A model generated the notes under the pieces. That model was not told the origin of the DNA. It ran no database searches and saw only the letters and a program-made list of their open reading frames with translations. From positions 1,922,001 through 1,986,000 of the forward strand of contig NZ_JACCBJ010000001.1 in assembly GCF_013408745.1 (NCBI RefSeq): DNA of 64,000 nt, read 5' to 3'. This document shows positions 38,900-41,590 of this stretch, piece after piece; positions within the stretch are counted from its first letter, which is position 1, and every line of letters starts with the position of its first letter. Source of the stretch: Leifsonia soli. GTDB lineage: Bacteria > Actinomycetota > Actinomycetes > Actinomycetales > Microbacteriaceae. A program made the position numbers and the translations under genes.

Positions 38900-39078
38900 G
38901 GCACCATCATCTCCGCACGCACCCCGAGGTTCATCCGTGCTTCCACGCAATCGGAATGAGGTGACCCCCCGGATGTGGGCCATCAGGGGCAGGACCAGGA
39001 TGTGAGACAACCTCATCGACCCGAACGATGGGGTCGCCCGCCGCAGAGCGGGCCGCAGTTCCACCCGAGGAGATGGCG

Positions 39079-40131
39079 ATGTCCACCGCGACCCGAACCG
39101 CCGACCCGACCGGCACCGCTGCCGTCCTCACGGACGCGGCGACCGGGGCGGTCGCGGTGGACGGCCGTCCCTCCGGGCGCGGGCGGCGCGGTGGCCCCGA
39201 ACTGCCCGTCGTCGTCATCGACCTGGCGCGCGCTGCCCGCCGCTTCCGCGACCTGCGCGAGGCGTTCCCCTGGGTGGACGTGCACTACGACGTCAGCGCG
39301 CTCGCGCATCCTGCTCTGCTCGGCACCATCTCGGCGGAGGGCGCCGGCTTCACGATCACGCACGAAGCGGCCCTCCCCGCCCTGCGCCGGGTGGATGCCG
39401 ACCTCGGCCGGGTGCTGCATGCGACTCCCGGCGCCCGCTGGCTGCAGCGGCGCTCCGCCTGGGCGGCCGGCGTCCGGCTGTTCGTCGTCGATGACCCGTA
39501 CGACCTCGATACCTTCGTGTCCGCTCCGGCCGGAACGGCCGTGCTGCTGCGGGTCGACCCGGGCATCGCCGTTCCCGTCGCGCGACATGCGTCGGCTCTC
39601 GGAGTACAGGTGGCCGGGCTGTCGCTCCCCGTCGCCGCCGCGACGGGCGCATCCGACCTCGTCGCGCTGCTGCAGCGCGCCGTGCGGGCGAGCAGCGACG
39701 TCGCGGCGGCCACGGGCCGCCGCCTGGAACTCCTCGACCTCGGCGACACCTTCTCGGACGGCACCGCGATCCGCCCGGCGGAATGGCCGGCGCTGGCCCG
39801 CACCGTCCGCTCGCTCGTCGCGCCGGCGACATCCCGCACCACCGTGCTGGCGACGGCCGGGCGCGCGCTGGTGAGCGACTGCATCACCGTCTCCGCCGGT
39901 GGCGGCGAGCACTACGCGGACGGCGCGACGGCGAGCGCCTGCATCGACGCGGGCTGCGAGGTGGTCGTGCTGCGCGAGGGGATGCGCGACGGCATCCTGT
40001 CGCGCCTGCCCCTCTTCCGCACGGCACCGGCCCGCGAAGGCGCCACGATGCGCCGCACTCCGCACGCCCGCGGCGGCCACCGCACGCTGCGTCCCTCCCG
40101 GGCGCGTTCGACCTGGTCCCCGGCCGGCTGA
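39079..40131 (+). CDS. Fold-type III PLP decarboxylase/racemase-like protein lacking PLP residues
   Basis: 350-residue protein with the barrel pattern of ornithine/diaminopimelate decarboxylases: FPWVDVHYDVSALAHPALL (about 63-81), GAGFTITHEAAL, RVLHATPGA, VAGLSLPVA and ELLDLGDTFSDG. The key residues are changed: the YAVK lysine aligns with Ser73, the HVGSG histidine with Pro184, GGGFPG with GDTFSD and EPGR with TAGR. It is thus predicted not to bind PLP. ATG 39079 follows GAGGAG. Divergent from the two-component operon. A sensor, binding or regulatory role is possible; unknown. Confidence 0.75.
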   Translation: MSTATRTADPTGTAAVLTDAATGAVAVDGRPSGRGRRGGPELPVVVIDLARAARRFRDLREAFPWVDVHYDVSALAHPALLGTISAEGAGFTITHEAALPALRRVDADLGRVLHATPGARWLQRRSAWAAGVRLFVVDDPYDLDTFVSAPAGTAVLLRVDPGIAVPVARHASALGVQVAGLSLPVAAATGASDLVALLQRAVRASSDVAAATGRRLELLDLGDTFSDGTAIRPAEWPALARTVRSLVAPATSRTTVLATAGRALVSDCITVSAGGGEHYADGATASACIDAGCEVVVLREGMRDGILSRLPLFRTAPAREGATMRRTPHARGGHRTLRPSRARSTWSPAG

Positions 40132-40161: not shown

Positions 40162-40192
40162 CGGGGACCACGGGAGCCTCCCGTGGTCCCCG
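40162..40192. terminator. Hairpin terminator after the decarboxylase-like gene
   Basis: Perfect 14-bp arms (40162-40175 and 40179-40192), 3-base loop, at a convergent junction. Shares the core GGGGACCACGGG with the hairpin at 41555. Confidence 0.8.
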
Positions 40193-40212: not shown

Positions 40213-40455
40213 TCAGGAGTTATTGGCCGCACGAGACTCCCTGTTCTTGAGCAGCTTCCCAGAACGAGATCGGCGAAGTCGCTGCCCTGAGAAGTACAGG
40301 CCCGGCCAAAGCAGGCCGCCAATAAGCGTCCACGTGAAAGACGTAGCGAGCGCAACCTGTAAAGCAACAAAGGCCGCGCCTGAAAGCAACCCGACGACGA
40401 AGTCCTCTACAAGGTAATAGAGCGGAGACTTCGCGGCATCAGCATTTGACGTCAT
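40213..40455 (-). CDS. Small two-helix membrane protein, immunity-like candidate
   Basis: 80-residue protein with helices at about 17-38 and 41-57 and a very basic tail (GQRLRRSRSGKLLKNRESR). ATG 40455 lies inside the 3' end of the secreted-protein gene, a 17-base overlap in another frame, which ties their translation together. Base composition is clearly lower in GC than the surroundings. Not recognised. Its partner is a secreted protein with a cysteine-rich hydrophobic tail, so an immunity role is inferred from arrangement only. Confidence 0.6.
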   Translation of the reverse strand: MTSNADAAKSPLYYLVEDFVVGLLSGAAFVALQVALATSFTWTLIGGLLWPGLYFSGQRLRRSRSGKLLKNRESRAANNS

Positions 40456-41371
40456 AGATCAACCCCGGTCCTACGTAGGGAAAATTCAACTGCATGCAGC
40501 GACCGGCTTTGGCGGCATTCCGCGCGGCAGTCGCCACGATATGCAGTCCGATCGCTGCAATCCCGCCGCAGACGGCAGCACCGGCAACGCCCCCGGCTAT
40601 CGCACATGCAAAGCTCAGAGCCTGGGCATCACTAGTGAAATCTGCCATATGCCTTGTTTCCGATTTGTTGTACGTAATCGTGCGCCCCCACCACAACCAC
40701 GTCACTGACGGGTCCGCTACAACAGGAAAAACCGTGGTGGCGGCGAAATCGATCACCTGTGTCAGCGCGCTTCCTTGTACCTCGTAGTGAGTCAGGACAG
40801 CGTTGCCGTTGGCGTCCTTCGCCCACGGGGCGGCGACGGCGAGCGACGGTACTCCGTCTGGCGTCACGACCGAAGCAGACCCGTCCTCGTTGAGCTGGAG
40901 GTGCTGGCCTGCCGGCACACTGATCGGGTAGTCATACCGCTTCGGTGCGGAAGCGTCCTCGATCACGGTGTTGATCTGCACGTTGCCGTCCCTTTGGACG
41001 ACCGGGACAGTGGTCGAGCCGTTGTTGTTGTCGTACGACACGACACCCGATTTCTGCACACTCGCGTCACCAGCGTTCCGCGCGAACGGCAGGCCGATCG
41101 ACACCACTTGCGAGCCGCTGCCGAGGGAGATACCTGCAGCCGGATCAACCGGCACCGTCACATCGGTACCAGCAATGGCCGCCGCCACCGCGTCCGTTCC
41201 TGTATCGGTTGTGGGCACCGACGCAGCGTTCGCGACAGTGTCCGGCGACGCCGCAGCAACTGCCGCCATCGGATCTGTCTCAGCAGCGTTCGCGGGCGTC
41301 ACTCCCACCAACGCCACACCAACGGCGCATGCAATCGCAATTCCGGCCGAAATGAGCTTTCGCACATCCAT
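40439..41371 (-). CDS. Secreted protein with C-terminal Cys-rich hydrophobic module; toxin/bacteriocin-like candidate
   Basis: 310-residue protein of unknown function. A Sec signal peptide (residues 1-29, ending ANA) is followed by an Ala/Thr-rich stretch, a beta-rich middle domain (about 80-215) ending in TVFPVVADPS, and an 86-residue tail. The tail holds all mature-protein cysteines (C256, C268, C292, C310, the last being the terminal residue) and a Gly/Ala-rich hydrophobic helix pair. ATG 41371 is preceded by AGGAAAGGGA. Lower GC than its neighbours suggests transfer. The operator-like GTTCAG-N2-CTGAAC lies 21 bp upstream. Confidence 0.65.
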   Translation of the reverse strand: MDVRKLISAGIAIACAVGVALVGVTPANAAETDPMAAVAAASPDTVANAASVPTTDTGTDAVAAAIAGTDVTVPVDPAAGISLGSGSQVVSIGLPFARNAGDASVQKSGVVSYDNNNGSTTVPVVQRDGNVQINTVIEDASAPKRYDYPISVPAGQHLQLNEDGSASVVTPDGVPSLAVAAPWAKDANGNAVLTHYEVQGSALTQVIDFAATTVFPVVADPSVTWLWWGRTITYNKSETRHMADFTSDAQALSFACAIAGGVAGAAVCGGIAAIGLHIVATAARNAAKAGRCMQLNFPYVGPGLIYDVKC

Positions 41372-41391
41372 AAACGTCGTCCCTTTCCTCG

Positions 41392-41405
41392 TTCAGCACT
41401 GAACG
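41392..41405. promoter_or_regulatory. Palindrome GTTCAGCACTGAAC upstream of the secreted-protein gene
   Basis: Six-base perfect arms with a two-base centre, just upstream of the ribosome site. Could bind an XRE- or TetR-type repressor; none is encoded nearby. Confidence 0.4.
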
Positions 41406-41554: not shown

Positions 41555-41590
41555 GGAGGGGACCACGGGACCTTCCCCGTGGTCCCCTCC
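41555..41590. terminator. Hairpin terminator after the ABC exporter operon
   Basis: Perfect 15-bp arms (41555-41569 and 41576-41590) with a 6-base loop, just beyond the exporter stop. Its core matches the hairpin at 40162. The rest of the 238-bp gap 41372-41609 holds only the palindrome at 41392. Confidence 0.8.

Follow-up and report, generated by a model that had tools for sequence, protein, structure and literature searches.

A two-gene cassette on the minus strand of Leifsonia soli DNA (40213..41371 of the 64,000-nucleotide stretch analyzed here, hereafter the window) probably encodes a prepro-bacteriocin of the closticin 574 type together with its immunity protein. We hold this toxin-immunity assignment, which draws on comparison of homologous loci, with good confidence. 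The C-terminal tail of the larger protein is probably cut off to attack rivals, and the small membrane protein probably protects the producer. Prepro-bacteriocins with an immunity protein and polymorphic toxins are both known kinds of system. What is new, as far as our literature search goes, is a closticin-type carrier shared by many tails with tail-linked partners in Actinobacteria, a combination of which the search found no description. An earlier sequence-only reading had proposed a precursor whose Cys-rich toxin tail can be released, coupled to an immunity protein. The comparative evidence favors that proposal; toxicity, the cut site, the disulfides, the membrane target, and immunity are inferred.

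The gene pair and its base composition

The larger gene (40439..41371, minus strand, ATG start) was delineated from its ORF, its homologues, and the carrier HMM, and encodes a 310-aa prepro-bacteriocin-like protein consisting of a signal peptide, a carrier domain, and a Cys-containing tail. The predicted immunity gene (40213..40455, minus strand, ATG start) encodes an 80-aa basic membrane protein and is supported by its ORF and by relatives that directly follow toxins, or what remains of them, with the same class of tail. Both minus-strand ORFs of the previously described cassette were recovered, the 80-aa ORF beginning 17 bases inside the first gene; since the pair is kept in relatives, it is not a product of chance. 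The GC content of the cassette is indeed lower than that of the whole window (0.610 versus 0.706), a value reached by 0.08% of equal-sized windows, and falls to 0.576 in the tail and partner. A 16-bp perfect palindrome (41390..41405), located 18 bases upstream of the toxin start, is a possible operator; it was absent upstream of the related loci scanned (the first 70 of 96 segments, only those with a start candidate).

The Sec-type signal peptide attributed to the first protein spans residues 1-29 (41285..41371, minus strand), as read by eye, with a predicted cut after ANA. It is followed by the carrier (pro) domain, a beta-sandwich ending in FPVVADP (residues 30-221; 40709..41284, minus strand), and by the tail, a predicted toxin placed by alignment and models (residues 222-310; 40442..40708, minus strand). 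The tail, given earlier as 86 residues, measures 89-90 aa depending on the boundary. The cysteine count was correct: of the five cysteines, one belongs to the signal peptide and the others (Cys 256, 268, 292, and 310, the last being the C-terminal residue) to the tail, and the middle domain is Cys-free. The partner had been described as a two-helix membrane protein; a simple hydropathy scan detected one TM segment, and a two-helix topology is plausible.

The carrier domain and its homologues

The middle domain was modeled as all-beta, in agreement with the beta-rich domain expected from the sequence, with blocks of 10 residues at pLDDT 89-98. A protein search that scored 7,999 candidates returned 164 homologues with E<=1e-3. 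Among the 120 matches listed of these 164, the named ones came mostly from Leifsonia and Cryobacterium, and 114 of the 120 carried an [FY]PVVADP-like border. The homologues align well before this border and, behind it, fall into groups without BLAST connection. Nine carrier residues (Trp183, Ala184, Asp186, Gly189, Thr194, Gln205, Pro216, Asp220, and Pro221) were invariant in all 36 chosen rows of the carrier alignment. The last two sit at the carrier-tail border (40709..40714, minus strand) and form the cleavage point that we propose for the 310-aa protein.

The Pfam scan of the window protein matched 0 families. Two candidate assignments were rejected accordingly. A type VII secreted effector of the WXG100/LXG type did not fit, as the WXG/LXG helical N-terminal domain had no Pfam match and the N-terminal domain is all-beta; membership of DUF2599 (PF10783) was likewise rejected, the C-terminal domain of that name not being found by the scan. 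Among the 46 carrier proteins chosen for Pfam analysis, weak carrier-side matches to surface-protein models were obtained, such as the surface repeat CFSR in three proteins (best E 9e-5); we count these against the toxin reading.

Polymorphism of the tails

BLAST comparison of 113 tails longer than 50 aa yielded 8 groups, and addition of the genome loci raised this number to 16 by single linkage, one of which is the out-of-frame tail of a disrupted locus (L006). One constant N-terminal part is therefore joined to about 15 unrelated tail groups, the arrangement that characterizes polymorphic toxins. The window's own group is the largest. Possible toxin-type domains occur in a few of the other classes. 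The Pfam scans, which took in the 46 chosen carrier proteins and 34 of 84 partners, matched DUF2599 in 14 of the 46 proteins, DUF4258 in 2 (just under the cut-off), and EndoU in 1 (weak), and the record of a Rhodococcus plasmid annotates a TNT domain in a protein with a carrier score of 93 bits; no such domain was assigned to the window's tail. The DUF4258 and EndoU tail classes are, we take it, ribonuclease toxins. A plasmid record of Clavibacter capsici is annotated with DUF4258 followed by DUF2283; this is apparently one of our two DUF4258 loci (L104) again and not an independent case.

At seven loci (L074, L075, L076, L079, L093, L014, and L057), the gene behind a DUF2599-group tail belongs to a lipoprotein-like family and does not encode a small multi-TM protein; this would be in keeping with a target that lies outside the membrane. 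Two loci (L062 and L064) have very short tails of 45-48 aa, and their partners are soluble and helical-looking, unlike the membrane partners elsewhere.

The window's tail was modeled as a beta-hairpin, four short helices, and a second beta-hairpin. The structure prediction and family searches that had been suggested for it matched no known enzyme or structural domain (no hit in Pfam, NCBIfam, or PDB). In the tail alignment, which comprises 23 of the 27 locus tails of the window's group, the four cysteines are invariant in 23/23 sequences and a Glu-Thr pair is nearly so. Two of the four tails left out (that of L082 and the first of L089) contain two cysteines only, so the four-Cys pattern is not valid for the whole single-linkage group.

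Association of tails with partner genes

We searched downstream of the carrier genes for ORFs on the same strand that start -60 to +150 bases from the carrier stop and encode 45-250 aa with a TM segment. The 109 segments were reduced to 96 by skipping L002-L005 (duplicates of L006/L007) and segments identical over the last 200 residues, and two of the 96 had less than 400 nt downstream, leaving 94 with room. Such an ORF was flagged behind 80 of the 94 carrier genes, a count that includes one spurious ORF (L045), but behind only 7 of 81 control genes; these controls, taken from the same loci, were long frames picked by codon-position GC and not gene-caller output. Partners with two or more TM segments numbered 63 behind carrier genes versus 3 behind controls. 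Close pairs were kept (e.g., L024/L026, L030/L031, L033/L034, and L075/L076), so the 94 genes are not independent. Hand reading raised the number with a plausible partner to 87 of 94. Regular absence of a partner among homologues, which would have spoken against a coupled immunity protein, was not found.

Several of the partners read by hand are of other kinds. The two loci with DUF4258 tails (L045 and L104) have soluble partners related to each other, that of L104 matching DUF2283, the one significant Pfam family among the 34 of 84 partners scanned, where other matches were weak. Other soluble ORFs serve as partners at L062, L064, L095, and L098; the partner at L017 is a lipoprotein-like ORF, and that at L011 is a 4-TM protein encoded farther downstream. 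The few tails resembling cytoplasmic nucleases are accordingly paired with soluble partners and most others with membrane or lipoprotein-like ones, a match of partner type to tail type that would be anticipated for partners located at the tail's site of action. No partner was visible for four intact loci (L027, L053, L054, and L101), which counts against the toxin-immunity reading, or for two disrupted ones (L035, represented by two segments, and L055).

Partner similarity follows the tail and hardly the carrier. In a set of 82 loci with a partner and a tail of at least 40 aa, which includes the out-of-frame tail of L006 and the spurious partner ORF of L045, the partial Mantel correlation of partner with tail given the carrier was 0.30, with 0 of 2000 permutations as high, whereas that of partner with carrier given the tail was 0.08 (3,317 pairs, after 4 near-identical pairs were left out of 3,321). 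Related partners were found in 62 of 327 tail-related pairs versus 10 of 2,990 tail-unrelated pairs, three of these ten involving the L006 tail. The 265 of 327 tail-related pairs with no detectable partner match set a limit to this comparison, in which partners are short and tail groups broad. Relatives of the 80-aa partner itself occur at six places in 4 of the 28 genomes of the genus (the window's own included); five follow either a toxin gene or a toxin remnant that still has parts of the carrier, and at the sixth (in G797) all that precedes the partner is the end of a tail of the window's class. These patterns link the partners to the toxin domain and suggest that they would protect the producer.

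Disrupted copies

The host genome contains two further copies of the cassette, both disrupted. One (L006) carries the out-of-frame tail, of another class, followed by an open gene for a 78-aa membrane partner from a different family. In the other (L007), much of the toxin is gone, but an open partner related to that of the window is retained. Two more loci (L068 and L011) resemble these in having a damaged toxin and a kept partner, so that the partner was kept at 4 of the 6 disrupted carrier loci seen. Open partners behind damaged toxins are the outcome that selection for immunity would give, in a count that is small and possibly affected by sequencing errors.

Genomic distribution and insertion site

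The presence of the carrier family is patchy. Its profile matched 84 of 398 genomes of the family Microbacteriaceae (39 of 85 genera) and 19 of 28 genomes of the genus; across the phylum, the carrier profile matched 18 of 396 genomes (the window's genome is included in each of these counts). Named matches outside the family include proteins of Streptomyces, Kitasatospora, and Micromonospora. Matches were also obtained in 22 plasmid records and in 4 phage records, the latter representing two phages with two records each. Two small genomes of the genus, G790 (2.7 Mb) and G805 (2.6 Mb), contain 5 and 8 carrier matches, respectively, some of those in G805 with stops.

The cassette is flanked on one side by a convergent gene (39028-40131) whose product has a pyridoxal-dependent decarboxylase domain, and on the other by ABC exporters. 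Both flanking genes are neighbors in 23 of the 28 genomes of the genus. In 16 of these 23, the flank matches are 70-324 bp apart (110 bp in G267), corresponding to an empty site; in the remaining 7, including the window's genome, they are 1.5-2.6 kb apart. Four empty sites examined (L162, L163, L166, and L167) have one strong hairpin between the flanking genes. In the window the hairpin occurs twice, just past the 3' side of the cassette (40163..40191) and on its 5' side (41558..41587), and the rest of the genome contains no further copy of the exact pattern. In G385, and also in G800, a pair of such hairpins encloses other genes; the second copy in G800 is a BLAST match not found by the hairpin scan. 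The large gene that occupies the site in G796, G793, G360, and G792 was read as encoding a surface protein. Recent arrival had been proposed from base composition; to the low GC content the relatives add an empty site, and the empty sites together with the hairpin duplicated around cargo support a horizontal arrival of the cassette at what may be an insertion hotspot.

The hairpin-flanked site was recorded in the window and in L156, L157, L162, L163, L166, and L167. The cargo in G800 and G385 looks effector-type, with a WXG100-like helical protein and a TM protein in the former and a lipase-like protein and a lipoprotein in the latter (Pfam matches weak).

Relation to closticin and other known systems

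Neither protein family had been recognized from the sequence; the carrier has now been matched to a protein of Paenibacillus phage BN12 annotated as a putative closticin (AUS03578.1), with 116.8 bits over HMM positions 95-218 and 40% identity over residues 137-228. As in the window, the homologous carrier of the phage protein ends in ADP and a membrane-protein gene lies directly behind it, in the phage encoding 120 aa with three predicted TM segments. Several facts stand against the closticin reading. The phage protein as annotated has 219 aa, with no signal peptide and with the beginning of the carrier missing; the HMM of the window's tail class scored -1.3 bits against it, i.e., no detectable likeness; and the cassette contains no protease gene. 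The closticin group differs further from the window in that the window's host belongs to Actinobacteria and its tail has four conserved cysteines. The profile of six actinobacterial tails (L018, L033, L034, L085, L110, and L111) reached E 0.02 against the phage tail, below the inclusion threshold. With the phage protein as query, 7 of 22 plasmid records, all from Streptomyces, gave matches that extended over 92% of its length and took in the tail.

According to the accessible text of PMC10888436, closticin 574, a bacteriocin of Clostridium tyrobutyricum, is made as a 309-aa pre-protein with a probable 27-aa signal and is cut outside the cell to an 82-aa bacteriocin. Pre-protein length is thus nearly identical to the 310 aa of the window protein, and the C-terminal peptides of the two have 82-90 aa. 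In the same text, the forward primer of a closticin-like gene (the CLB primer) starts the predicted mature peptide at Pro-Asp-Trp; taken with the carrier's invariant Asp-Pro, this would place the cut between Asp220 and Pro221. It also counts against the closticin reading that a closticin-574-like mature peptide from Bacillus, made cell-free, is reported there as inactive on two indicators. The comparison with closticin 574 runs through its phage namesake and the accessible published description. By sequence, the window protein would be closticin-type in its carrier and not a closticin in its tail.

Polymorphic toxin systems (Zhang et al., 2012), as described in the accessible text, combine a constant trafficking part, swappable tails, partners, and disrupted toxins accompanied by partners, as observed here, although the present carrier is small and Sec-secreted; the first 300,000 of the 357,715 characters of that paper (PMC3482391) contain no mention of closticin, DUF4258, or DUF2283. 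A phage-borne counterpart is orf64/orf65 of Microbacterium phage Min1, annotated as hypothetical, in which the carrier scores 120.6 bits and the same tail class 46.9 bits, and the partner has 61 aa with one TM segment. These phage-encoded genes lie a few genes from a probable holin gene (L139, 2755-3811), making Min1 a possible mobile source of such cassettes. The Streptomyces umbrella toxins are likewise secreted actinobacterial antibacterial proteins; their description in the accessible text of PMC11062931 as protein complexes or particles sets them apart, and the Pfam scans of the window protein and the 46 carrier proteins gave nothing pointing to them.

Proposed function and alternative explanations

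In the mechanism that we propose, the 310-aa protein would be exported by Sec, and its beta-sandwich carrier would hold the 90-aa tail inactive or present it. An extracellular protease would then cut at or near the invariant Asp-Pro to release the tail; for a cut exactly at Asp-Pro we see about an even chance. The disulfide-stapled, mostly helical tail may attack the envelope of related Gram-positive bacteria, most likely the membrane, a target that we favor slightly, and the overlapping 80-aa membrane protein would protect the producer.

The tail could instead stay attached: the full-length protein would act by contact, its beta-sandwich binding to a sugar in the target's cell wall and its tail serving as effector. 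The carrier fold does resemble beta-sandwich domains of sugar-active enzymes, and several matches in the phylum search placed part of the carrier within very long open frames of distant members, far from any C-terminus. With the reported cutting of closticin 574 (PMC10888436, accessible text) and the invariant Asp-Pro at the border set against this, we consider an unreleased tail unlikely. More improbable still is a non-antagonistic role, in which the secreted protein would serve the envelope or housekeeping, its membrane partner would resemble a chaperone, and the tails would vary by relaxed or surface-antigen evolution. This reading would accommodate the few weak matches to surface-protein models, the sandwich fold is neutral on toxicity, and toxicity in the actinobacterial family is itself deduced; it fits poorly with the toxin-type tail annotations (weak for DUF4258, by record for TNT), the tail-linked partners, the partners kept behind damaged toxins, and the patchy presence with an empty site in relatives.

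If the two genes instead formed an addiction pair, of the toxin-antitoxin or phage type, that acts within the producer itself, this would account for the small overlapping genes and for relatives on two phages, and DUF4258-DUF2283 pairs look like toxin-antitoxin pairs. However, the Sec-type signal and the conserved cysteines point outside the cell, the partner is encoded second, and the carrier is shared with a phage-encoded putative closticin; we regard such a pair as very improbable.

A released bacteriocin with an immunity protein thus remains our preferred reading. We extend it only tentatively, and with more doubt than conviction, to the idea that the closticin carrier marks a broad, unrecognized class of protease-released polymorphic bacteriocins across Firmicutes and Actinobacteria, all cut at Asp-Pro; each tail would be traded together with its cognate immunity gene, and cassettes would land in chromosomal terminator hotspots, where the terminator hairpin would be duplicated. 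If true, the preferred reading would connect a large, uncharacterized actinobacterial family with a bacteriocin originally described from Clostridium and would predict both immunity genes and a common cut site. Dozens of tail-partner pairs would then be candidates for narrow-spectrum antibacterials, and DUF2599, so far without a known function, would gain a testable role as a toxin tail.
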